Below, piece by piece: positions 38,403 to 54,537 of a stretch of DNA of 64,000 nucleotides (positions within the stretch are counted from its first letter, which is position 1; every line of letters begins with the position of its first letter). Both the position numbers and the translations under genes were made by a program. The notes below the pieces were generated by a model. The model saw only the letters and a program-made list of their open reading frames with translations, was not told where the DNA came from and ran no database searches. This stretch comes from Oceanobacillus senegalensis (GTDB lineage Bacteria > Bacillota > Bacilli > Bacillales > Amphibacillaceae), in contig NZ_LT839648.1 of assembly GCF_900176885.1 (NCBI RefSeq), positions 2,708,834 to 2,772,833 of the forward strand. The letters are read 5' to 3'.

Positions 38403-38431
38403 TTTACAAAATTAAAAATATAGTTTATAAT
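38403..38431 (+). promoter_or_regulatory. Sigma-A promoter of the CoA-transferase leader
   Basis: TTTACA (38403-38408), a 17-base spacer and TATAAT (38426-38431) form a good promoter about 205 bases upstream of the CoA-transferase gene. Confidence 0.7.
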
Positions 38432-38437
38432 ATAAAT

Positions 38438-38602
38438 CAATAAATCATTAAGGATTTTCTTATACAATCCTTAAACCTACTAATAAGTTACTGCCTAATC
38501 TGTTCGCATTCCTTTTCCAGGTCTGTTCCAACAGATATAAGCCAGTTCAATGTAATTTACAGAATATCTGTAATTTATTTGAACTGGCATTTTTTTATTT
38601 TA
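38438..38602 (+). ncRNA. Attenuator-like leader before the CoA-transferase gene
   Basis: The leader has a 9-base hairpin (TTAAGGATT 38448-38456 with AATCCTTAA 38466-38474), a second hairpin TCTGTT/AACAGA (38522-38527 with 38530-38535), and an intrinsic terminator GCCAGTTCAA (38541-38550) with TTGAACTGGC (38579-38588) then a T-run. The strand AACAGATAT (38530-38538) can pair in three ways: with ATCTGTT (38498-38504), with 38522-38527, or with ATATCTGT (38564-38571) inside the terminator loop. The last excludes the terminator. This is a switch-like arrangement; the ligand or factor is unknown. Confidence 0.5.
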
Positions 38603-38638
38603 TATAGTCGTTAAATAACAATAAAAAGAGGTGAACGT

Positions 38639-39796
38639 ATGCCTGGAGCACTTGAAAAAATTCGTATTCTTGATCTTTCAAGAGTATTGGCTGGTCCCTA
38701 TTGTACAATGATTCTTGGTGATTTAGGAGCTGAGGTTATAAAAGTAGAAGCTCCTGGAGGTAGTGATGAGACTAGGAAATGGGGCCCCCCTTTTCAGAAT
38801 GATGTCAGTGCCTATTACCTTAGTGCTAATCGCAATAAAAAAAGCATTACCGTGGATCTAAAATCTGATAATGGAATTAACACAATTAAGGAACTCGCAC
38901 AAAACAGTGATGTTGTAATAAACAATTTTAAAACAGGAACGATGGAGCGGTTCGGAATTGGTTATGACACTCTTTCCCAGCTAAATCCTCAGCTTGTATA
39001 CTGTTCAATTACTGGCTTTGGTGAAACAGGTCCATATAAAGATATGCCTGGTTACGATTTTATCATTCAAGCGATGAGTGGATTAATGAGCATAACTGGA
39101 GACGAACAGTCCGGCCCCCAAAAACTTGGTGTTGCTATCACTGATGTCTTAACCGGTTTGTATGCTTGTATTGGCATTCAAGCTGCCTTACTAGAGCGGA
39201 CGCAATCAGGTAAAGGGCAAAAGCTTGATATTTCTTTATATGACTCCGCCGTTAGTTCACTCGTGAATATTGGAAGCAATTATTTAACGTCTGGACAAAT
39301 ACCTAAACGTCTTGGAAACGAACATGCCAACATCGTCCCCTACCAAACGTTTCCAACAGCTGATGGAGAAATAGTCATTGCGGTAGGTAATGATAACCAG
39401 TTCCATAAGCTATGCCAGATTATTGGAAGGTCTTATCTAAGTAAAGATCAACGTTTTTCTACCAACCCCGAACGAGTAAAGCATCGAGAAGTATTAGTCC
39501 CACAATTACAGAAGGCTTTTTTATCCAAGCCAAGTGCTTATTGGCAAAAGAAATGCCAAAAAAATAAGATACCCTGCGGTCCCATACAAAATATAAAGGA
39601 AGTCACTCAAGATCCTCAGCTACGAGCAAGGGACATGTTTATTGATTTCCATCATCCAACAGCCGGTGCTATTAAAATGATTGGAAGTCCACTCAAACTG
39701 TCACGAACACCTATAACAGTGAGGCATCACCCACCAAATGCCGGTGAACATAACCATGAATTTATTACTAATAAGGATAGCGAGGAGAGGATATAA
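38639..39796 (+). CDS. Class III (CaiB/BaiF) CoA-transferase, likely glutarate-using
   Basis: A 385-residue family III CoA-transferase. The catalytic aspartate falls at D169 (VAITDVLTGLY), the same number as in formyl-CoA:oxalate CoA-transferase, and the opening DLSRVLAGPYCTMILGDLGA is the nucleotide-binding region. Members move CoA between carboxylic acids. The next gene is a glutaryl-CoA-dehydrogenase-like enzyme whose start codon overlaps this stop by one base (TAATG), so a succinyl-CoA:glutarate CoA-transferase role is the best guess; oxalate or carnitine specificity is not excluded. GAGGTG precedes the ATG, downstream of an attenuator-like leader. Confidence 0.88.
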   Translation: MPGALEKIRILDLSRVLAGPYCTMILGDLGAEVIKVEAPGGSDETRKWGPPFQNDVSAYYLSANRNKKSITVDLKSDNGINTIKELAQNSDVVINNFKTGTMERFGIGYDTLSQLNPQLVYCSITGFGETGPYKDMPGYDFIIQAMSGLMSITGDEQSGPQKLGVAITDVLTGLYACIGIQAALLERTQSGKGQKLDISLYDSAVSSLVNIGSNYLTSGQIPKRLGNEHANIVPYQTFPTADGEIVIAVGNDNQFHKLCQIIGRSYLSKDQRFSTNPERVKHREVLVPQLQKAFLSKPSAYWQKKCQKNKIPCGPIQNIKEVTQDPQLRARDMFIDFHHPTAGAIKMIGSPLKLSRTPITVRHHPPNAGEHNHEFITNKDSEERI

Positions 39797-40992
39797 TGAA
39801 TTTTGAGTTTACAGAGGAACAAGAATTACTACGCAAGACGGTTAGAGAGTTTGTAGATAAGGAAATTATGCCTTATATGACGAAATGGGACCGGGAAGGA
39901 AAATTTGATCCTAATATTTATAAACGATTGAGAGATCTAGGACTAATGGGGGTCTGCATTCCTGAAACCTATGGCGGAGCTGGAATGGATTATAATTCAC
40001 TCGCCATCGTATGTGAAGAGTTAGAGCGTGGAGATACCGCTTTTCGAACCGCAGTTTCTGTCCATACTGGATTAAATAGTATGACCTTACTCCAATGGGG
40101 AACAGAGGGACAAAAACAAAAATATCTAAAACCCCAAGCAGAAGGGGAAAAACTCGGTGCATTCGGTCTAACGGAGCCAGGAGCCGGATCTGATGTTGTG
40201 GCATTACAAACAACGGCTGTAAAGGATGGAGATTTTTATCGCTTAAATGGCCAAAAAACCTGGATTTCTCTATGCGATGTTGCTGATCATTTTATCGTAT
40301 TTGCCTACACCGGCGACCGTTCTGAAAAACATAGAGGAATTTCTGCGTTTATCGTAGAACGCACATGGGATGGCTTTTCATCAAAGGCTATCAAAGGAAA
40401 GCATGGCATACGTTCTGGTAATACTGGAGAATTATTTTTTGATGATGTGAAGGTCCCTAAAGAAAATCTTCTAGGTAAAGAAGGGGAAGGTTTTAAAATT
40501 GCCATGTCTGCTCTAGATAATGGGCGCTTTACCGTGGCAGCCGGCGCTGTTGGTCAAATCATGGCCTGCCTGGAAGCAAGCGTAAAATATTGTGAGGAGC
40601 GTAAAACTTTCGGAAAGGAAATTGGCAAACATCAGCTGGTTCAACAAATGATTGCCAAAATGGAAGCTGGACTACAAATGAGTCGTCTACTCGTTTATCG
40701 TGCGGGGGAGTTAAAAAATCAAGGCAAACGGAATACGAGAGAAACCTCCCTTGCAAAGTGGCAGGCATGTGATTTTGCCAACAAGTCCGCAGATGATGCT
40801 GTGCAAATCCATGGTGCGTACGGCTATTCCGATGAATATCCAGTCGAACGCTATTTACGTAATTCGAAGGCCCCAGTTATTTACGAAGGAACACGTGAGA
40901 TTCATACCATCATGCAGGCTGAATATGTATTAGGCTACCGAAAAGATAAACCTTTGAATCGAATGTTGCCCGCTTGGGAATCGGATGATTAA
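39796..40992 (+). CDS. Glutaryl-CoA dehydrogenase-like acyl-CoA dehydrogenase
   Basis: A 398-residue acyl-CoA dehydrogenase. The catalytic base is E364 in YEGTREIH (matches E370 of human glutaryl-CoA dehydrogenase), and the segment FRTAVSVH puts R84 and S88 at the places of R94 and S98, which bind the distal glutaryl carboxylate in that enzyme. FAD motifs LTEPGAGSDV (about 125-134) and KTWIS are typical. It would oxidise and decarboxylate glutaryl-CoA to crotonyl-CoA using ETF. It is translationally coupled to the CoA-transferase. Short-chain acyl-CoA dehydrogenases usually lack the Arg/Ser pair, so the glutaryl assignment is fairly strong but not tested. Confidence 0.88.
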   Translation: MNFEFTEEQELLRKTVREFVDKEIMPYMTKWDREGKFDPNIYKRLRDLGLMGVCIPETYGGAGMDYNSLAIVCEELERGDTAFRTAVSVHTGLNSMTLLQWGTEGQKQKYLKPQAEGEKLGAFGLTEPGAGSDVVALQTTAVKDGDFYRLNGQKTWISLCDVADHFIVFAYTGDRSEKHRGISAFIVERTWDGFSSKAIKGKHGIRSGNTGELFFDDVKVPKENLLGKEGEGFKIAMSALDNGRFTVAAGAVGQIMACLEASVKYCEERKTFGKEIGKHQLVQQMIAKMEAGLQMSRLLVYRAGELKNQGKRNTRETSLAKWQACDFANKSADDAVQIHGAYGYSDEYPVERYLRNSKAPVIYEGTREIHTIMQAEYVLGYRKDKPLNRMLPAWESDD

Positions 40993-41005
40993 ATAGAATA
41001 TATAG

Positions 41006-41042
41006 AAAAAGGACCTACCATTTATGGATGGCAGGTCCTTTT
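41006..41042. terminator. Bidirectional terminator
   Basis: AAAAGGACCT-CCAT and ATGG-AGGTCCTTTT pair with one mismatch, between converging genes. Confidence 0.85.
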
Positions 41043-41114
41043 GGTTAGGTTGTGAATCTTGTTAAATATTAGATATCGGGCTTGAGATACTCTTATCGGC
41101 TTTCCTCTCATCTT

Positions 41115-41432
41115 TTAGCTTCCTTCTCCAACATACCCCTCATATTGTTTCTGCAAATCCTTCAATGCGGATACTAACGCATTCCCCGCTTTTCCTAAAT
41201 AATGCCGTTTCACTATCTGAATAGGTGCCTCAATCCCCTCTTGAAGACTGTGTCCTCTAAGCAATCGTTGAACAAAATCACGACCATGTTCCGTTGCTAG
41301 TGTACAATTTGCGGCGACAATTACACCATACTTTTTATCAATTTCGGCTGTGATGGTTAACGTATCATAGATGCTTTTTGCTGCCATTCCTGATGGGAGT
41401 CTAGCATGCCCTGCAATGAATACTGTTTTCAT
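41115..41432 (-). CDS. DUF3870 domain protein
   Basis: A 105-residue DUF3870 protein. The fold is small alpha/beta, with the conserved GHARLPSGM at about residues 8-16 and CTLATEHGRDFVQRLLRG about 43-60. Function is unknown; as last gene of a lysine-type catabolic cluster it may be an accessory (regulatory or metabolite-binding) protein, which is inference from context. AAGGGAT precedes the ATG. It ends near the converging acyl-CoA dehydrogenase. Confidence 0.8.
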   Translation of the reverse strand: MKTVFIAGHARLPSGMAAKSIYDTLTITAEIDKKYGVIVAANCTLATEHGRDFVQRLLRGHSLQEGIEAPIQIVKRHYLGKAGNALVSALKDLQKQYEGYVGEGS

Positions 41433-41464
41433 TTTATTCAGATCCCTTCAACTAGTTTACTAAT

Positions 41465-42610
41465 TTACGATTTCTCCTCTATGACTACTCCCCGTTTGGC
41501 CATTTCCTTGATATACGTATTACCCGGAACAATTTTCTCTGGTGGGAAAACGCCTCTATCTATTATAACACCGCTACCTATCATTTGAGCAACAACTGAT
41601 ATCGTATTAGCAGTTGCACGTGCCATTGCCGTTACTTTCGTTGTTCTATCTTTGTAGGTTACCATTTCAAATGGATAGGTTGCTGATTTACCGTCCAACA
41701 CACCAGAAACAATAACACGTAAAAGCACGACATCATCCTTATCCCCTAACTCAACAATCGGATCAAGCACTTTTAAAAAAACTTCTCTTGGATTAATCTT
41801 TTTTCCATTAACATTCACATCATAATCCTTACGAGTTAAATTTAAATCAACGAGTAATTTAAATTTCTCTGCATGACCCGGATATCGTATCGTTTTGTAT
41901 TCTAATTCCTCTAGAGAGGGATACGAAAGAGATAGTGTAGATGTCCCTCCTGATGTATGAAAAGCTTCCAATGGAGCGAATCTCTCAAAATGAACCTCTT
42001 CTATTTCCGATAATGACGGGATTTCCTGTTTCATTCCATCCCTAATAATCAATGCAGAATCCGTATAATGGTCAAACACCCCTTCCATAGAAAAAACATG
42101 ATTATATTCAAATGGAGGAGTTGGCCGTAAAGGGATTCCTCCAACATATAATTTTATTGATTTTACACTATCTAGTTTACTAGCACCATAGCCTGATAAT
42201 ATATTTATCATGCCTGGTGCCACCCCAAGATCCGGTATCAAAGTAACTCCAGCTTTCTTCGCATCATCATCCAGATCAAGCACCTTATCTGTTATATGAC
42301 CAATATGCCCCCCTAAATCCACTGAATGAACTCCAACACGAATCGCCGACTTCGCTACCACCTCATTAAAGGAATAAAATAAGGCATTAATAATAACGTC
42401 AAACTTTTTCATGAAGCTTTCTAACTCTTGTCTTTTACTTGCATCTACCCGAAAGGCTTGCAGCTTAGAAGATTGCAAGGAATTACATACCGCTACCGCT
42501 CTATCCATATCCACATCAGCTAAGCCAACAGCCGTAACCCCTTTACTTTCCACTAAATCACGAGCTGCTTCCTTTCCCATTAAACCAGAACCTAAAACAC
42601 CTACTTTCAT
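41465..42610 (-). CDS. L-lysine 6-dehydrogenase-like saccharopine dehydrogenase family enzyme
   Basis: A 381-residue enzyme of the saccharopine dehydrogenase family. It begins [18 protein letters not shown] (NAD-binding turn at residues 6-11) and carries [20 protein letters not shown] and [20 protein letters not shown] in the middle. Length and these segments resemble the L-lysine 6-dehydrogenase of Geobacillus stearothermophilus, which oxidises lysine to allysine with NAD. That similarity is from memory and was not aligned. The ATG at 42610 has GGAGGG 7 bases upstream; the ORF extends 32 codons further without a site. Its neighbours suit lysine breakdown. An amino-acid imine reductase role is an alternative. 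Confidence 0.86.
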
Positions 42611-42719
42611 TTTTATCCCTCCAGTATTACTAGTGTTGTCTTTTATCGGAGAATGAGGGGCGGTAATCCATGAACATCTATTTGGAATATTGTAGCTAAA
42701 GAACAAATCTAAAAATATG

Positions 42720-44213
42720 CTACTCTACATCAATCTGCGCTCGCTGTAATTTTCCACTATAGTCCACATATATTGCCTTCCACTCTGTAAATACATCCAA
42801 CGCCTGAACACCAGAGTCACGATGCCCGTTTCCTGTTCCTTTTGTTCCACCAAATGGCAGGTGAATCTCCGCTCCAGTTGTACCAGCATTTACATAAACA
42901 ATCCCTGTATCTAAATCACGTTGGGCTTGAAAAACACGATTGACATCTCGAGTAAAAATAGAGCTTGATAGACCATAAGATACGCCATTATTAACTTCAA
43001 TCGCCTCTTCAAAGCTTTGAACAGGAATAAGTGAGACAACTGGTCCAAATATTTCTTCTTGTGCAATGCGCATCGTTGGCTCTACATCTGTAAATAAAGT
43101 TGGTATGAAAAAGTTTCCACCCATATAATCCGTTCCAGATAACTCATATCCACCTTCGAGCAATGTAGCTCCTTCTTTTTTACCAATCTCAATATAATCT
43201 TTTATCTTCTCTAGCCCTACTTTATTTATAATTGGACCAACCTTAATCGTTTCATTTAATCCATTTCCTATGGTTAGATGCTGCATTTGCTGAAGTAGTT
43301 TTTCCTCTAGTTTTTCTTTTACTGCCTCATGCACAATAACACGGCTACATGCGGTACAACGCTGCCCACTAGTTCCAAAGGCACTCCATAAAATCCCTTC
43401 AACCGCTAAATCTATATCCGCATCATCCATCACAATGACAGCATTTTTCCCTCCCATCTCTAAGGAGACCTTTTTCAACTTTCTGCCACAGTCTGCTGCA
43501 ATATTCCGACCAATGTCATTAGATCCAGTAAAGGAAATCACACGAATATCATCATGATGTACCATCGCGTTTCCAACCATTTGACCGCTACCAAATACAA
43601 CATTTATGACTCCATTAGGTAACCCCGCTTCCTCAAAAATCTTCGCCAATTCGTACGCCATGATTGGTGTTTCTGTTGCAGGTTTCCAAATTACAGCATT
43701 ACCCGCTACAATCGCAGGAAATGACTTCCATGTCGCAATAGCAATCGGAAAATTCCATGGGGTGATAATCCCAACAACCCCAACTGGTGCTCGCTGGCTC
43801 ATAGCAAATTTATTATTTAGTTCAGCAGGTGTCGTCTGGCCAAATAAGCGTCTACCTTCTCCAGCCATATAAAATGCCATATCAATCCCTTCTTGCACTT
43901 CACCTCTAGCCTCTTCCAGCACCTTTCCATTTTCCATCGTAAGTAACTGGGACAACCGTTCTTTTCTTTCCTTTAACAATGTTCCCACCTGGTACAAAAT
44001 TTCTGCTCGCTGTGGTGCCGGAACTAGTGCCCATTCCTTTTGCGCCTTTTTCGCTGCTGCCACTGCATCATCTACACTGCCTGCATCAGAGAGCGGTACG
44101 TCAACAATCTCCTCACCTGTAGCTGGATTTATAACAGCAGTCGACTTCCTAACATCTACCCATTTTCCATCTATAAAATTAGATAACTTCGTTGTATCCA
44201 ATGAAACGGCCAT
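42720..44213 (-). CDS. NAD(P)-dependent aldehyde dehydrogenase
   Basis: A 497-residue class I/II-like aldehyde dehydrogenase. Catalytic Cys C286 (GQRCTA), general base E252 (LEMGGKN) and the cofactor asparagine N154 (TPWNFP) are in place. In this cluster it fits oxidation of allysine (2-aminoadipate semialdehyde) to 2-aminoadipate and perhaps glutarate semialdehyde to glutarate; the sequence does not fix the substrate. It lies 24 bases after the ThDP enzyme gene stop, in the same direction. GGGGGA precedes the ATG. Confidence 0.92.
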
Positions 44214-44236
44214 GGAATAATCCCCCTTTGAAACTA

Positions 44237-45868
44237 CTAATTTCCCTTTTGAATTTGTTCAATTGTCCTTGAAACTGATATTTGCTCCTTCCCTGTCATT
44301 ATTTCAATGACAGCCAGTTTCTCTTTACCTAAGACTTGATTGAGTGTTTTTTCAAATCCTTCTGGAGTTGATACCTGGTAACCCGTTACTCCCATACTTT
44401 CTGCTAATTCCTTAAATGATACAGCTCCTAAATCTGTGGCAATCACCTTCCCCGGATAATGCATTTCCTGATGCATACGGATGGTACCATACATATTATT
44501 GTTAAAAACAAGACATATGATAGGAATTTCAAACCTTACTGCTGTTTCTAATTCCATTACAGTCATCATAAAACCACCATCTCCGGATAAGGAAATGATA
44601 GATTTATCAGGAAAAGCTAATTTAGCTCCAAGTGCTGCAGGCATCCCATAACCCATTGCACCTGATGTTGGTCCAATATACGTATGTTTTTGGGTAAAGG
44701 AATAATAGGCATGAAGCCATCCAGCAAAATTTCCAGCATCGTTTGTTAATAAACTATCATCCGGTAACTTTTTCTGTAATAGATCAATGACATGCTTATT
44801 AATCGGGTCATCTGTAGATACTTTTAATTTACTAGCCTCCTCATAAGCATTTCTTCTCCTCTTCGCCCATGTTTTCCATGTTCTGTTGACATAAATATTT
44901 TCTAATAACAGCAACGCTTGCTCTATATCAGCAACAATGCCAACATCAGGAGCACTTACTTTTCCTAAGGTCCCATCATGGATGTCAATGTGAATCAGTT
45001 TCTTATCTGGAGGAAGGATGGAATAGTTTTGTGTCGTCACCTCGGATAACCTAGTTCCTAACGCCAAAATAGTATCCGCTTCATAAACAGTCTCTTGAAT
45101 ATTCGGATGAGTACCTAAACCAAGATGACCAACATACAATGGATGATTATTTGGGAAAATATCATGACGCCGAAAAGAGGTCATAACGGGAATTCCCCAT
45201 TTTTCAGCACAAACCTTTAAATTATCCTCCGCCTGCGCACTTTTCACCCCACCACCAGCAATGATTAACGGTCTTTTCGCATGGGATAATACCTTTTCAA
45301 CACTTTCTATTTCCGTTTCGGATGGAGCAGGTTTTGGTCGTGGAGTTACAGGACCAAAGCTTATTTCTACTTCTTCATTCAATACATCTTCAGGCAAGGA
45401 AATAACTACCGGTCCGGGTCTTCCTGATTGAGCAATTCGAAAAGCACGTTGAACAATTTCTGCAGTTCGTGTTGGATCATTTAATTCCATTGTCCATTTT
45501 GCCATGTGCTCGAAATGCCTATCTAAATCAATCTCCTGAAATCCTTCTCTCCCCTTAACTTCTCTTTTCACCTGACCTAAAAAGACCACCATTGGAGTGG
45601 AATCCTGATACGCGGTATGAATGGCAATCGCAGCATTACTCCCACCAACAGCCCTTGTTGCAAATACAACGCCAGGCTGAAAGGATGCCTTAGCATAACC
45701 TTCTGCCATAAAACCAGCGCCACTTTCATGCCTTGTCGAGATCACCTGTATCGAGTCCTCGTCATATAGAGCATCAAGTACTGACAAATAACTTTCTCCT
45801 GGGACACAGAAGACGTAACGAATAGATTCTAGTTTCATGCATTCCACAATGGCAGAGGCGGCAGTCAT
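44237..45868 (-). CDS. ThDP-dependent decarboxylase/synthase (acetolactate-synthase-like)
   Basis: A 543-residue ThDP enzyme of the acetolactate synthase/2-keto acid decarboxylase superfamily. The catalytic glutamate is E48 (RHESGAGFMAEG), and the ThDP-Mg motif GDG...NNN is in the third domain (SGDGGFMMTVMEL to VFNNNMYG). The ATG at 45868 is used: GGAAGGAG is about 5 bases upstream, and the start reads MTAASAIVECMK as in relatives; the ORF's first ATG at 45895 overlaps the aminotransferase stop. It may decarboxylate 2-oxoadipate in the presumed lysine route, but acetolactate-like or other 2-keto acid activity is possible. Confidence 0.9.
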   Translation of the reverse strand: MTAASAIVECMKLESIRYVFCVPGESYLSVLDALYDEDSIQVISTRHESGAGFMAEGYAKASFQPGVVFATRAVGGSNAAIAIHTAYQDSTPMVVFLGQVKREVKGREGFQEIDLDRHFEHMAKWTMELNDPTRTAEIVQRAFRIAQSGRPGPVVISLPEDVLNEEVEISFGPVTPRPKPAPSETEIESVEKVLSHAKRPLIIAGGGVKSAQAEDNLKVCAEKWGIPVMTSFRRHDIFPNNHPLYVGHLGLGTHPNIQETVYEADTILALGTRLSEVTTQNYSILPPDKKLIHIDIHDGTLGKVSAPDVGIVADIEQALLLLENIYVNRTWKTWAKRRRNAYEEASKLKVSTDDPINKHVIDLLQKKLPDDSLLTNDAGNFAGWLHAYYSFTQKHTYIGPTSGAMGYGMPAALGAKLAFPDKSIISLSGDGGFMMTVMELETAVRFEIPIICLVFNNNMYGTIRMHQEMHYPGKVIATDLGAVSFKELAESMGVTGYQVSTPEGFEKTLNQVLGKEKLAVIEIMTGKEQISVSRTIEQIQKGN

Positions 45869-45891
45869 TGTTCTCCTTCCTACATATCTAT

Positions 45892-47067
45892 TCATATTTC
45901 ATCCACCTCATTCATTTTCCATAGCTTAAGTCTTCGGATTACTTCATCTAGGCGATTTAAGGTAACAGTTAACGCAATACGAACATACCCCTCTCCTTTT
46001 TCCCCAAAGGCAATTCCCGGTGTCACCATAACCCCTGTATTATCAAGCAATTCGTTTGCGAACCCCATTGAAGTGTAACCAGCTGGAACTTTTACCCATA
46101 AAAAAAAGGTACCTCTAGGCTTTTGTGTAGAAAAACCTAACTTCTGTAAAGCGGCATAGAGTTTTTCGATTCGTTTCTCATAAATACGATTGTTTTCTTG
46201 TACCGTTTGAAAATTACTCTCTAGCGCTACTTGAGCTGCTTTTTGAATGGCTAAAAACTGACTTGTATCTATATTGCTTTTTAAGGTTGCTAAAGATTGA
46301 ATGAGATCCTTATTACCAGCCACATAACCAATCCTCCAGCCAGACATATTAAAACTTTTCGATAAGGAACCAAATTCAATTGCATATTCCTTGGCATTAG
46401 GTACTTCCAGGATGCTTGGAGCTTTATAGTCTTTACATGTAACCAATTGATAGGCAGCATCATTAGTGATGACAATTGAATGTTTTTTTGCGAGTGTTAT
46501 AGCTTTATGGAAGGTATTTACATCAATCGTTGCAGTTGTGGGGTTATTTGGATAGTTTAGAAGCATTAACTTTGCCTCATCGGCATCATCTGTAGAAATG
46601 TTGTCAAAAAGTGGTTCATAATTCTTATTTAAAGGCAAATCAATCTTTTTGCCACCTGCTAAGTAAATTCCAGTTTCATAAACGGGATAAGAAGGATTCG
46701 CAATCAACACCTTATCACCAGGATTAATGACCGCCTGAATAAGGTTTACGATCCCCTCCTTACTGCCAATGAGTGCTAGAACTTCCTTTTCAGGGTCTAG
46801 TGAAACTCCATATTGATTTTTATAGAAAGAGGCTACTGCCCTCCTATATTCCAAGCTTCCACTATATGTGGAATACCGATGATTATTTGAATCCTTCACC
46901 GCTTCAGACAATGCCTGACAAATAAAATCTGGAGTCGGTAAATCCGGTGCACCGATCCCTAGATCAATCACATCGACACCTTTAGCTTCAAGTTGTTTTT
47001 TCTTTTGCTGAAACACGGAAAATAAGTAAGCTGGTAAATCTCTTACTTTATTGGAAGCAAACTGCAT
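45892..47067 (-). CDS. Class I/II pyridoxal-phosphate aminotransferase
   Basis: A 391-residue fold-type I aminotransferase. The PLP lysine is K237 (SLSKSFNMSGWRIG), the cofactor aspartate region is NYPNNPTTA/TNDAAYQ (about 171-207), and the phosphate arginine is R245 in the GWRIG motif. Similar enzymes act on aspartate, LL-diaminopimelate or 2-aminoadipate. It is the first gene of the minus-strand operon; its TGA overlaps an in-frame ATG of the ThDP gene frame. In the presumed pathway it would convert 2-aminoadipate to 2-oxoadipate. GAGGGGGAT precedes the ATG. Confidence 0.91.
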   Translation of the reverse strand: MQFASNKVRDLPAYLFSVFQQKKKQLEAKGVDVIDLGIGAPDLPTPDFICQALSEAVKDSNNHRYSTYSGSLEYRRAVASFYKNQYGVSLDPEKEVLALIGSKEGIVNLIQAVINPGDKVLIANPSYPVYETGIYLAGGKKIDLPLNKNYEPLFDNISTDDADEAKLMLLNYPNNPTTATIDVNTFHKAITLAKKHSIVITNDAAYQLVTCKDYKAPSILEVPNAKEYAIEFGSLSKSFNMSGWRIGYVAGNKDLIQSLATLKSNIDTSQFLAIQKAAQVALESNFQTVQENNRIYEKRIEKLYAALQKLGFSTQKPRGTFFLWVKVPAGYTSMGFANELLDNTGVMVTPGIAFGEKGEGYVRIALTVTLNRLDEVIRRLKLWKMNEVDEI

Positions 47068-47338
47068 TTCCCATCCCCCTCTTTTTAGACTGTTTTCTTT
47101 CGTATCTTGTTATTTTTTTGTGTCGGTGTAAACTTTTTAGATAACAGCCTTGCCTTGAGTAAAACCAATTCTATCGAGTGAACATACGTATACACTACAT
47201 TTTATTCAGCAAATGACAAAATATAATCTTAAAGTAAACCTAAAAATACGATAAAATATATTTAGTTTTTAATAGGAAATGCATATGTTATACTTATGGA
47301 ATTGATATCATCAAGAAATTCAAGAAGGGATTTATTTT

Positions 47339-48682
47339 ATGCAACGTAAAAAACAACAATGGTCTTCGAAAATTGGATTTATCCTATCCTCAGCAGGGGC
47401 TGCCATCGGTCTTGGTGCTATATGGAAGTTCCCATATATGACTGGTATGAATGGTGGGGGGGCATTTTTCTTACTCTTTATCGCGTTTACCGTGATTATT
47501 GGCCTGCCAATTTTAATTGCAGAATTTATTATTGGTAGAGGAGCTGGTAAGGAAGCAGTTAAGGCTTATAAAACCCTTGCACCGAAAAGCATCTCTTCCA
47601 TGATTGGTTATTGGGGAGTAATTGGTGCATTTCTATTAATGTCCTTCTATAGCGTGGTTGGTGGATGGGTACTCCTATACAGTGCTTTATCCATACCGGG
47701 CATTATCATTCGAGAAGGTGCTAATTATCCAGATCTTTTTGCACAAATTACTGGAAGCCCTTGGATTACGATTCTAGGGTTAGCTCTATTTCTTCTTATA
47801 AATATAATCGTCGTTTCTTTTGGAATTCAGAATGGAATAGAGAAGGCAAGCAAGATTTTAATGCCACTGCTCTTTATCTTTTTTATTGTATTGGTTGGTC
47901 GTGCTGTTACATTTGAAGGAGCCATAGAAGGAATTCGCTTCTTCCTACAACCAGATTTCTCAAAATTAAATGCAGAGAACGTATTGTATGCCTTGGGACA
48001 ATCCTTCTTTTCCCTAGCCGTTGGAATTTCGGTTATGGTTACGTACAGTTCCTACCTAGGAAAAGATATTAGTCTTCCGGCATCAGCTAGTTCAGTTTCC
48101 ATCATGAATATCTTTGTTTCCCTATTAGCTGGCCTTGCCATTTTCCCAGTCGTATTTGCATTTGGTCTTGAACCAGCACAGGGTCCAGGATTATTGTTCA
48201 TTGTCCTACCAGAGGCATTTAGCAGTATGCCATTTGGTGAAGTGTTCTTGAGTCTGTTTTTATTATTATTCTTGTTTGCTGTATTAACTTCATCCTTTAG
48301 CATGTTGGAGATTATTACAGCCGCATTTTCCAATAACAAAAACCGTTCTCGTAAGAAAGTAGCAAGCGTTGCTGGACTACTAGTATTCATAGCGGGGATT
48401 CCTGCCGCATTATCATCTAACATACTATCCGACTTTACAATTTTTGGTAAAACCGTATTTGATGCAACTGACTTTCTAGTAAGTAATATTATGCTCCCTG
48501 CTGGATGCTTGTTTATCGCTCTGTTCATTGGCTTTAAAATGGATAAAGCTTTGGTTAAACAGGAATTCACCTTAGGAAATCACTTAAATGGTGGGATATA
48601 TAATATGTGGTACCAGATCATGCGATGGCTTGTTCCAGTTACCATTATTATCGTATTCCTATCTACTTTAGGGGTTGTGTAA
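47339..48682 (+). CDS. NSS-family sodium:amino-acid symporter
   Basis: A 447-residue neurotransmitter:sodium symporter relative with about eleven to twelve hydrophobic segments. The first helix carries the sodium/substrate motif SAGAAIGLGAIWKFPYM (about residues 15-31), in which the usual Asn after GLG is Ala. Bacterial members import tryptophan, tyrosine or other amino acids with sodium. It is divergent from the catabolic operon at 47.07 kb, so it probably brings in that operon's substrate, which may be lysine; the Ala change and the substrate are open. AGAAGGG precedes the ATG. Confidence 0.9.
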   Translation: MQRKKQQWSSKIGFILSSAGAAIGLGAIWKFPYMTGMNGGGAFFLLFIAFTVIIGLPILIAEFIIGRGAGKEAVKAYKTLAPKSISSMIGYWGVIGAFLLMSFYSVVGGWVLLYSALSIPGIIIREGANYPDLFAQITGSPWITILGLALFLLINIIVVSFGIQNGIEKASKILMPLLFIFFIVLVGRAVTFEGAIEGIRFFLQPDFSKLNAENVLYALGQSFFSLAVGISVMVTYSSYLGKDISLPASASSVSIMNIFVSLLAGLAIFPVVFAFGLEPAQGPGLLFIVLPEAFSSMPFGEVFLSLFLLLFLFAVLTSSFSMLEIITAAFSNNKNRSRKKVASVAGLLVFIAGIPAALSSNILSDFTIFGKTVFDATDFLVSNIMLPAGCLFIALFIGFKMDKALVKQEFTLGNHLNGGIYNMWYQIMRWLVPVTIIIVFLSTLGVV

Positions 48683-54240: not shown

Positions 54241-54336
54241 TTGTGTCAGAATGTAGAATTTTAGATAGTAAAGTAGAAAAGTATATACTTGTACTACAAA
54301 TCAACGCTTTTATATAAAAGCGAACTGTCCAAAATT

Positions 54337-54475
54337 CCTTCTCCCATCCAGACTTTAACTGTCGGTTCTGGATTTTCACCAGATCAGCCGCTTGGCTAAA
54401 AAGCCGCACGGGTCACGGACTTAGAAGTATTACTTCTTCACCGTCGGTAGGGAATCTCACCCTGCCCCGAAGGAA
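54337..54475 (-). ncRNA. FMN riboswitch (RFN element)
   Basis: On the minus strand all RFN landmarks are present: CCTTCGGGGCAGGGTGAGAT, TTCCCTACCGACGGT, AGTCCGTGACCCG, the GATCTGGTGAAAATCCAG part and the closing GATGGGAGAAGG. The aptamer is directly upstream of a terminator and ribE, so it controls riboflavin genes by attenuation. One or two variable loops differ in length as usual. Confidence 0.96.
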
Positions 54476-54537
54476 CTATTGTAATTTTTCTTTATTATAC
54501 ATTGTTTCGCCCAATATTTCAATAGCTTAATTTTAAT

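Follow-up and report, generated by a model that had tools for sequence, protein, structure and literature searches.

Which metabolic route does a compact gene cluster of Oceanobacillus senegalensis encode, and how is it controlled? The cluster lies in a 64,000-nucleotide stretch of the 4.3 Mb genome (RefSeq assembly GCF_900176885.1, contig NZ_LT839648.1, positions 2,708,834 to 2,772,833), which we call the window. Within 10 kb it holds genes for an NSS symporter, a class I/II aminotransferase (AT), a thiamine diphosphate (ThDP) enzyme, an aldehyde dehydrogenase (ALDH1), a saccharopine-dehydrogenase-family enzyme (SDH), a DUF3870 protein, a class III CoA-transferase (CoAT) and an acyl-CoA dehydrogenase (GCDH); all eight stand where a first-pass annotation of the sequence had placed them. 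We think it likely that the cluster serves a saccharopine-independent breakdown of lysine to crotonyl-CoA, with its glutarate end (CoAT-GCDH) controlled by a conserved leader RNA that was absent from the first-pass annotation and is new in this analysis. In the proposed route, SDH would convert lysine to allysine as a lysine 6-dehydrogenase, ALDH1 would turn allysine into 2-aminoadipate, and AT would yield 2-oxoadipate, which the ThDP enzyme would decarboxylate to glutarate semialdehyde. A succinate-semialdehyde dehydrogenase (SSADH)-like enzyme encoded elsewhere in the genome would then form glutarate, CoAT would produce glutaryl-CoA, and GCDH would give crotonyl-CoA. We infer the substrate of every enzyme from its sequence and its gene surroundings.

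Gene content and order recur across genera, and the cluster is therefore more than a chance assembly. The same gene set was sought in 40 loci from relatives (36 around SDH orthologs and 4 around distant SDH paralogs) and in 80 named loci, the best 80 of at least 569 relatives; loci and genomes are cited by L and G numbers. The common layout is an AT-ThDP-ALDH1-SDH unit convergent to CoAT-GCDH, often with a second, SSADH-like aldehyde dehydrogenase gene (ALDH2) that adjoins GCDH in many relatives. DUF3870 and an IclR-type regulator (named by eye) often accompany the longer unit. In the window, CoAT-GCDH (+ strand, 38639-40992) likewise converges with AT-ThDP-ALDH-SDH-DUF3870 (− strand, 47067-41115), DUF3870 ending the SDH unit. 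The route needs two aldehyde dehydrogenases and the cluster has one, the second being absent, which makes the earlier description of the locus as complete too generous; the nearest match to ALDH2 in this genome is 53% identical and lies 1.8 Mb away. The first-pass annotation had named scattering of the genes in relatives as an outcome that would refute its reading. Scattering does occur in part, with AT-ThDP, ALDH-SDH and CoAT-GCDH separate in some genomes, but at the level of whole genomes the family retains the genes together. The most conserved pair is ALDH1-SDH, which persists without AT-ThDP; ALDH1-SDH-GCDH lacking AT-ThDP is common in named Sporosarcina, Planococcus, Psychrobacillus and kin.

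The distribution of the genes across genomes supports a common function. An SDH ortholog is present in 96 of 159 genomes from the same family (every best match at E 1e-145 or lower), a ThDP ortholog in 77 (E 1e-150), a GCDH ortholog in 81 (E 1e-160) and a CoAT ortholog in 79 (E 1e-150; a threshold of E 1e-90 gave 85 genomes, from which six with 38-42% identity only, G009, G082, G084, G085, G086 and G089, were dropped). Every genome with ThDP, GCDH or CoAT falls within the 96 SDH genomes and none within the other 63 (Fisher 1e-27 to 1e-30, for relatives that are not independent). The 96 divide into 75 with both ThDP and GCDH, 2 with ThDP only, 6 with GCDH only and 13 with neither. CoAT is found in 75/75 of the genomes with both genes and in 3/6 of the GCDH-only genomes (Fisher 2e-4), as expected if the ThDP enzyme yields free glutarate. 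In two of these three GCDH-only genomes (G072, L240; G075, L241), CoAT-GCDH-ALDH2 has genes for an omega-aminotransferase and a permease next to it, and L241 also has HyuA/HyuB-type genes (by eye), presumably resembling the valerolactam hydrolase OplBA. In a class-wide sample of 398 genomes, SDH occurs in 50 (E 1e-120), ThDP in 17 (E 1e-180) and both in 12 (Fisher 2e-8). Among 30 named genomes, picked from the 80 mostly for loci without AT-ThDP, 8 have ThDP and 7 have CoAT at 59% identity or more.

The first-pass annotation had drawn a saccharopine-independent route through allysine, 2-aminoadipate, 2-oxoadipate and glutarate; by inference it is supported by this co-occurrence and by two kinds of gene neighbourhood. 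AT adjoins ThDP in 13/13 SDH-less loci with ThDP more than 50% identical, and ALDH1 follows the pair in six of them (L170, L174, L175, L178, L179, L180); three further ThDP copies in the SDH-less set, at 45-49% identity, have no AT beside them. With the exception of L178, these loci (five of the six) further contain a ThiO/SoxB-type FAD oxidase and an ornithine-cyclodeaminase/piperideine-2-carboxylate-reductase-type gene, the layout expected if pipecolate or D-lysine feeds piperideine-6-carboxylate. L260 has an uninterrupted ALDH2-AT-ThDP-ALDH1-SDH run, with five enzymes for five steps of the route and both aldehyde dehydrogenases among them. In L238, L255 and L256, ThDP-ALDH1-SDH is preceded by genes for a GabT-like aminotransferase, an aldehyde dehydrogenase and a permease, and lies opposite CoAT-GCDH-DUF3870. 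We take these layouts to mean that the ThDP step stays constant while non-homologous enzymes replace the aminotransferase and the second aldehyde dehydrogenase.

The three enzymes of the AT-ThDP-ALDH1 module could instead attack the alpha-amino group of lysine, passing through 6-amino-2-oxohexanoate and 5-aminopentanal to 5-aminovalerate, with the SDH-type enzyme serving separately. An aminotransferase, a ThDP enzyme and an aldehyde dehydrogenase make up the layout of the arginine transaminase route, and omega-aminotransferase genes able to take 5-aminovalerate are present in L155/L232, L240, L241 and, by eye, L100. This alternative is quite unlikely in our judgement: the window's cluster has no omega-aminotransferase, ALDH1-SDH is the pair that stays when AT-ThDP is missing, and the five SDH-less loci with an oxidase and a piperideine-type reductase fit piperideine-6-carboxylate, not 5-aminopentanal.

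The individual assignments that underlie the lysine route differ in strength. SDH has the domains of the saccharopine-dehydrogenase family (Pfam PF16653, 146.6 bits; PF03435, 74.8 bits), with a conserved start at the ATG at 42610. The solved structure closest to it is 3abi (E 7.5e-37), a lysine dehydrogenase, ahead of saccharopine reductases (1.7e-14). An SDH ortholog (68-73% identity) is present in 27 of 41 genomes searched from the family of Anoxybacillus flavithermus, and in 26 of the 27 it is the only family copy at E 1e-20, the remaining one having a partial second copy. Since these genomes hold no other family member save that partial one, the characterised Geobacillus lysine dehydrogenase would be expected to belong to the SDH ortholog group. 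SDH is a probable L-lysine 6-dehydrogenase. A second saccharopine-family gene, 29-34% identical, occurs in 21/96 SDH genomes in other neighbourhoods (L065, L066, L067, L068). The best NCBIfam match of ALDH1 names an alpha-ketoglutaric semialdehyde dehydrogenase, below the cut-off; in relatives it pairs either with SDH or with oxidase genes of the pipecolate type, and it is probably an allysine/piperideine-6-carboxylate dehydrogenase. AT scores best against NF006756 (LL-diaminopimelate aminotransferase; 494.1 bits, just under the cut-off of 507) and is a candidate 2-aminoadipate aminotransferase. The best solved relative of CoAT is 9br6, a succinate--hydroxymethylglutarate CoA-transferase, and CoAT is probably a succinyl-CoA:glutarate CoA-transferase. 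In GCDH, alignment shows the Arg of TAFRTAV in common with the glutaryl-CoA dehydrogenase 3mpi, and a Tyr precedes the catalytic Glu where 3mpi has Val-Glu. We take this Arg to bind the substrate and the Tyr to mark the decarboxylating type; both are present, and only the Arg is telling, because Tyr-Glu is common in other acyl-CoA dehydrogenases of the same listing. GCDH is probably a glutaryl-CoA dehydrogenase.

The ThDP enzyme matches PRK08199/NF006052 at 718.7 bits, over the cut-off of 539, and has three ThDP domains (PF02776, PF00205, PF02775), GDGG at 438 and, within TRHESG, a Glu that is presumably the catalytic Glu of ThDP enzymes. The first-pass annotation had conceded that its scheme would fail if this were simply an acetolactate synthase. 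That identity is barely credible and was rejected: the synthase family of NCBIfam does score 410.8 bits, but under its cut-off of 538.35 and far below PRK08199, and a different gene of this genome resembles the synthase and has a small-subunit-like gene after it (by eye). His475 of the ThDP enzyme occupies the position of a Trp in that synthase-like protein, a His is found there in 70/73 distinct ThDP orthologs, and the synthase Gln-His pair is replaced by Asn-Phe. We regard the enzyme as a candidate 2-oxoadipate decarboxylase.

A number of observations weigh against the lysine route, and several of them bear on the substrate of the ThDP enzyme. Neither ThDP nor GCDH is found in 13/96 SDH genomes. 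In the class-wide sample, 5/17 genomes with ThDP lack SDH; four of the five have AT-ThDP pairs in one family (L243-L246), with TRAP transporter genes beside the pair in the one locus whose flanks were scanned. ThDP copies at 52-56% identity stand without AT in L235, L236, L247, L248 and L249. The AT-ThDP pair of L251 has an agmatinase-type gene and an aldehyde dehydrogenase as neighbours, which resembles an arginine setting, and its ThDP copy has the same pocket letters as the window's enzyme. CoAT reaches 452.8 bits with NF052585, which is still its top family, under the cut-off of 750. The top NCBIfam match of GCDH is acryloyl-CoA reductase (387.9 bits; cut-off 640), with glutaryl-CoA dehydrogenase NF045552 second (381.9 bits, below the cut-off of 470). 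The pocket letters were rejected as proof of a 2-oxoadipate substrate, as they do not separate the L251 copy, and that locus may encode a ketoarginine route whose ThDP enzyme closely resembles the window's. A sigma-54-type regulator (by eye) also lies beside the AT-ThDP pair of L251 (5859-11572).

The ThDP enzyme might act on another 2-oxo acid, such as 2-ketoarginine or 2-oxoglutarate, or be promiscuous, the cluster being a general module of amino-acid breakdown. L251 and the five SDH-less ThDP genomes would fit this, as would a score of 305.5 bits for the NCBIfam 5-guanidino-2-oxopentanoate decarboxylase, although that lies below its cut-off of 500. The idea is unlikely, given that 77/77 ThDP genomes of the family also carry SDH, that no ureohydrolase gene is among the open reading frames of the cluster, and that CoAT follows ThDP among the GCDH genomes.

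The second part of our proposal concerns the leader of the CoAT gene. It contains a 60-nt element built of an outer helix (ACUGC/G-CAGU), a conserved internal loop and two further stacked helices, and then an intrinsic terminator. The 5' arm of the terminator, GCCAGUUCAA, is also the 3' strand of the outer helix of the element. Because nucleotides 38541-38546 are common to both, the outer helix and the terminator exclude each other. The terminator arm lies inside the element in 44/58 distinct elements, as in a mutually exclusive platform; a terminator-like hairpin stands upstream of CoAT in 53/54 sequences from relatives, and the preceding element was also seen in the four upstream CoAT sequences set beside that of the window. 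The overlap suggests which way the switch works: formation of the outer helix would block the terminator and allow transcription of CoAT-GCDH, transcription would otherwise stop in the leader, and binding of a signal that keeps the outer helix in place would permit transcription.

Conservation of the RNA structure was assessed on sequences gathered by loose match to two patterns derived from the upstream CoAT sequences, a procedure that favours consensus in the outer and middle helices, not compensatory change. In a MAFFT alignment of 34 related sequences (A3; 35 found, one left out), with a structure drawn by hand from the same sequences, 88.1% of 578 cells are paired over the three stacked helices, and 12/17 pairs are changed on both sides, none of them in the outer helix. 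The covariation score is 0.323, against 0.166 (standard deviation 0.012) in shuffled alignments, none of 500 reaching it, and at most 0.112 when the structure is slid. Compensatory changes thus back two of the three helices, as in a conserved structure. RNAalifold recovers the outer and middle helices unaided, divergent matches retain the helices, and cmsearch gives the window's element 79.7 bits with a model that includes the sequence itself. No family of the Rfam 15 covariance models reaches its gathering score over the element; known Rfam leaders were rejected, their matches being far under the gathering scores.

A covariance model of the element (R1) was searched against sets of 87, 80 and 77 loci (3.5 Mb with overlap), where 28, 23 and 21 matches had an E value of 1 or lower. 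A second model (R2), built from 52 matches of which one is probably spurious, adds matches upstream of AT in L253, L254 and L260 (E 0.02-0.09; 0.004-0.014 in a smaller search). The 75 listed matches, less 17 duplicates, leave 58 distinct ones, weak matches in L174 (E 0.79) and L261 (E 0.4) being left out. Of these, 55 precede likely genes of lysine, 5-aminovalerate or glutarate metabolism; the loci were fetched for such genes, so that the enrichment is one of position within loci, not of whole genomes. The first gene of the query list within 1.6 kb downstream is CoAT in 42 cases, AT, a GabT-like aminotransferase and an omega-aminotransferase in three each, and SDH, HyuA, a permease and GCDH in one each. 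The distance is within 252 nt in 53/55 and 374 and 565 nt in the other two. Of the three matches without such a gene, one is a second, overlapping weak match in L095 (14787), probably spurious and kept in the fitted alignment (A4) and in R2. The other two are in L004 (1183-1241) and L008 (1300-1358), from genomes without GCDH and CoAT orthologs, where the element and its terminator are kept as if left behind after loss of these genes.

The hairpin could conceivably be a mere terminator of the upstream mreBH gene, with incidentally conserved letters. It does lie between mreBH and CoAT and has a strong terminator fold. This is nevertheless very unlikely, since a separate inverted repeat (by eye) directly follows mreBH, a promoter-like site lies between mreBH and the hairpin, the element precedes genes where mreBH was not seen (L155, L232, L240), and its helices covary.

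Three results count against control by the element. The outer helix is nearly invariant and so rests on conservation, with no covariation signal. In A4, the count of pairs with changes on both sides is reached in 51/500 shuffles, and each of the remaining measures in 0/500. Searches of nine Halobacillus loci, G125 (L057) and L141 did not find the element despite orthologous CoAT genes, with filters off for five of these (three Halobacillus, L057 and L141). Loci L118 and L127 show a similar layout by eye that the model did not find with filters off, and were not counted. In L112, L113, L117, L128 and L057, a conserved terminator-like hairpin (AAGCCAGT..GGATTCATAC) stands upstream of CoAT where the element is absent, and may be another control signal.

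The DUF3870 protein offers a different view of the leader. It is encoded in 43/44 distinct CoAT loci that have the element at any place in the locus and in 3/18 that lack it (62 loci); the one element locus lacking it, L125, overlaps L238 on the same contig, and L238 has DUF3870. Antiterminators of the HutP type are proteins that bind leader RNA and prevent termination, and the leader could work in this way, bound by a protein, possibly DUF3870, without being a metabolite aptamer. The association with the element is what such a mechanism would predict, yet it follows lineages. The nine Halobacillus CoAT loci have neither element nor DUF3870, and Halobacillus loci still keep a terminator-like hairpin upstream of CoAT. 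DUF3870 also stays with SDH in loci where CoAT and element are absent (L039, L043, L053), and adjoins CoAT-GCDH in five SDH-less loci (L230, L231, L239, L240, L241). A fold search with its AlphaFold model (pLDDT 88.5) gave no match at E 0.001, the best being a chain of a cysteine-desulfurase/scaffold complex. We are doubtful of the protein antiterminator, while giving it some weight; the association may come from the descent of the lineages, or DUF3870 may take part in switching.

The leader RNA is best read as an element that controls the glutarate end, either as a riboswitch or as an attenuator assisted by a protein. Its signal is probably a metabolite that the lysine and 5-aminovalerate routes share, sensed by the RNA directly or via a protein such as DUF3870. 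Glutarate is the first guess, because glutarate semialdehyde, glutarate and glutaryl-CoA are common to the lysine route and the 5-aminovalerate/valerolactam-type loci; lysine and 5-aminovalerate are further candidates. The full proposal, a new class of Bacillales riboswitch for lysine, 5-aminovalerate and glutarate genes that senses glutarate or a shared metabolite, possibly with DUF3870 as a partner, and switches a pathway with a ThDP-dependent 2-oxoadipate decarboxylase not assigned before, is tentative, and we place it somewhat short of an even chance.

The pathway would be a new arrangement of known kinds of enzymes with one new assignment, the ThDP step. The L-lysine 6-dehydrogenase route of Geobacillus and Agrobacterium likewise combines a saccharopine-family NAD enzyme and a semialdehyde dehydrogenase to reach 2-aminoadipate; the window's genes are additionally clustered with the ThDP enzyme and the glutarate genes. 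The mammalian and classic bacterial route also leads from 2-oxoadipate through glutaryl-CoA to crotonyl-CoA, but with a 2-oxoadipate dehydrogenase complex in place of the decarboxylase, free glutarate, aldehyde dehydrogenase and CoA-transferase proposed here. The HglS route of Pseudomonas splits 2-oxoadipate without that complex, but the product of HglS is 2-hydroxyglutarate, and HglS, unlike the window's candidate, does not belong to the ThDP enzymes. Transcription-attenuating riboswitches resemble the leader in having a conserved fold with a 3' strand that also serves an intrinsic terminator; the window's element matches no Rfam 15 family. A lysDH of Bacillus thermoamylovorans has been used for a route from lysine to 2-aminoadipate in E. 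coli (PMC9437556), and a cyanobacterial 2-oxoglutarate decarboxylase (PMC10418658) similarly uses ThDP to decarboxylate a 2-oxo dicarboxylate non-oxidatively, after which the semialdehyde dehydrogenase SSADH acts. The substrate of this decarboxylase is one carbon shorter; Lys471 of the Microcystis enzyme, docked as a salt bridge to the substrate, corresponds to His475 of the window's enzyme by motif spacing only (PMC10418658). We found no ThDP 2-oxoadipate decarboxylase in a lysine cluster in the literature, most subscription journals being outside the search.

The RNA element is the more surprising part, its novelty resting on Rfam 15 alone; a term search of the main text of PMC8632094 returned neither 'glutarate' nor 'lysine', with no further literature search on the RNA. 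If the proposal is true, the PRK08199 branch of ThDP enzymes is assigned a job, the passage from lysine to crotonyl-CoA in many Bacillales without saccharopine or a 2-oxoadipate dehydrogenase complex is explained, and DUF3870 gains a context. There would also be a candidate riboswitch class whose ligand could be looked for in a short list of named metabolites, and a sensor for glutarate would be of use in strains making nylon precursors.

Table 1. Features of the cluster, with positions in the window
Feature	Position	Strand	Evidence
Promoter-like site TTTACA-17-TATAAT of the CoA-transferase unit	38403..38431	+	consensus scan, 11/12 positions
Conserved structured RNA, 60 nt, leader of the CoAT gene	38490..38549	+	covariation, RNAalifold, cmsearch
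Intrinsic terminator in the leader, 5' arm GCCAGUUCAA	38541..38596	+	sequence; leader fold z -6.0
CoAT, class III CoA-transferase	38639..39796	+	NCBIfam NF052585; solved relative 9br6
GCDH, acyl-CoA dehydrogenase	39796..40992	+	NCBIfam scores; alignment to 3mpi
15-pair hairpin between the convergent units	41007..41042	.	terminator scan
DUF3870 protein, 105 aa	41115..41432	−	Pfam PF12986, 110.5 bits
SDH, saccharopine-dehydrogenase-family enzyme	41465..42610	−	PF16653, PF03435; open reading frame open to 42706
ALDH1, aldehyde dehydrogenase 1	42720..44213	−	Pfam PF00171; NCBIfam
ThDP enzyme, acetolactate-synthase superfamily (PRK08199)	44237..45895	−	NF006052
AT, class I/II aminotransferase	45892..47067	−	NCBIfam NF006756
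NSS symporter, MhsT-like	47339..48682	+	solved relative 4us3

The start of the locus in the first-pass annotation, 38403, coincides with the -35 of the promoter-like site; overall, the consensus scan returned no greater number of sites than in shuffles. The hairpin between the convergent units is likely a terminator shared by both. The symporter, which the first-pass annotation had counted as a member, is probably not part of the lysine pathway. Its gene runs divergently from AT, and the solved protein closest to the symporter is 4us3, which is MhsT. In six loci (L035, L041, L042, L052, L058, L095), genes named by eye as kynurenine-type KynA, KynB and KynU sit between NSS and the cluster, which suggests an aromatic amino-acid carrier; a lysine carrier was rejected on the same grounds.

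Elsewhere in the window, an ordinary FMN riboswitch (54332-54478, − strand, 117.4 bits) adjoins riboflavin-type genes, and the window edge truncates a small-subunit rRNA gene, of which the start is present (1-250, − strand). Two aldehyde-dehydrogenase matches (G000:C4:374470 and 378207) have the same score and lie 3.7 kb apart, perhaps as a tandem duplication.

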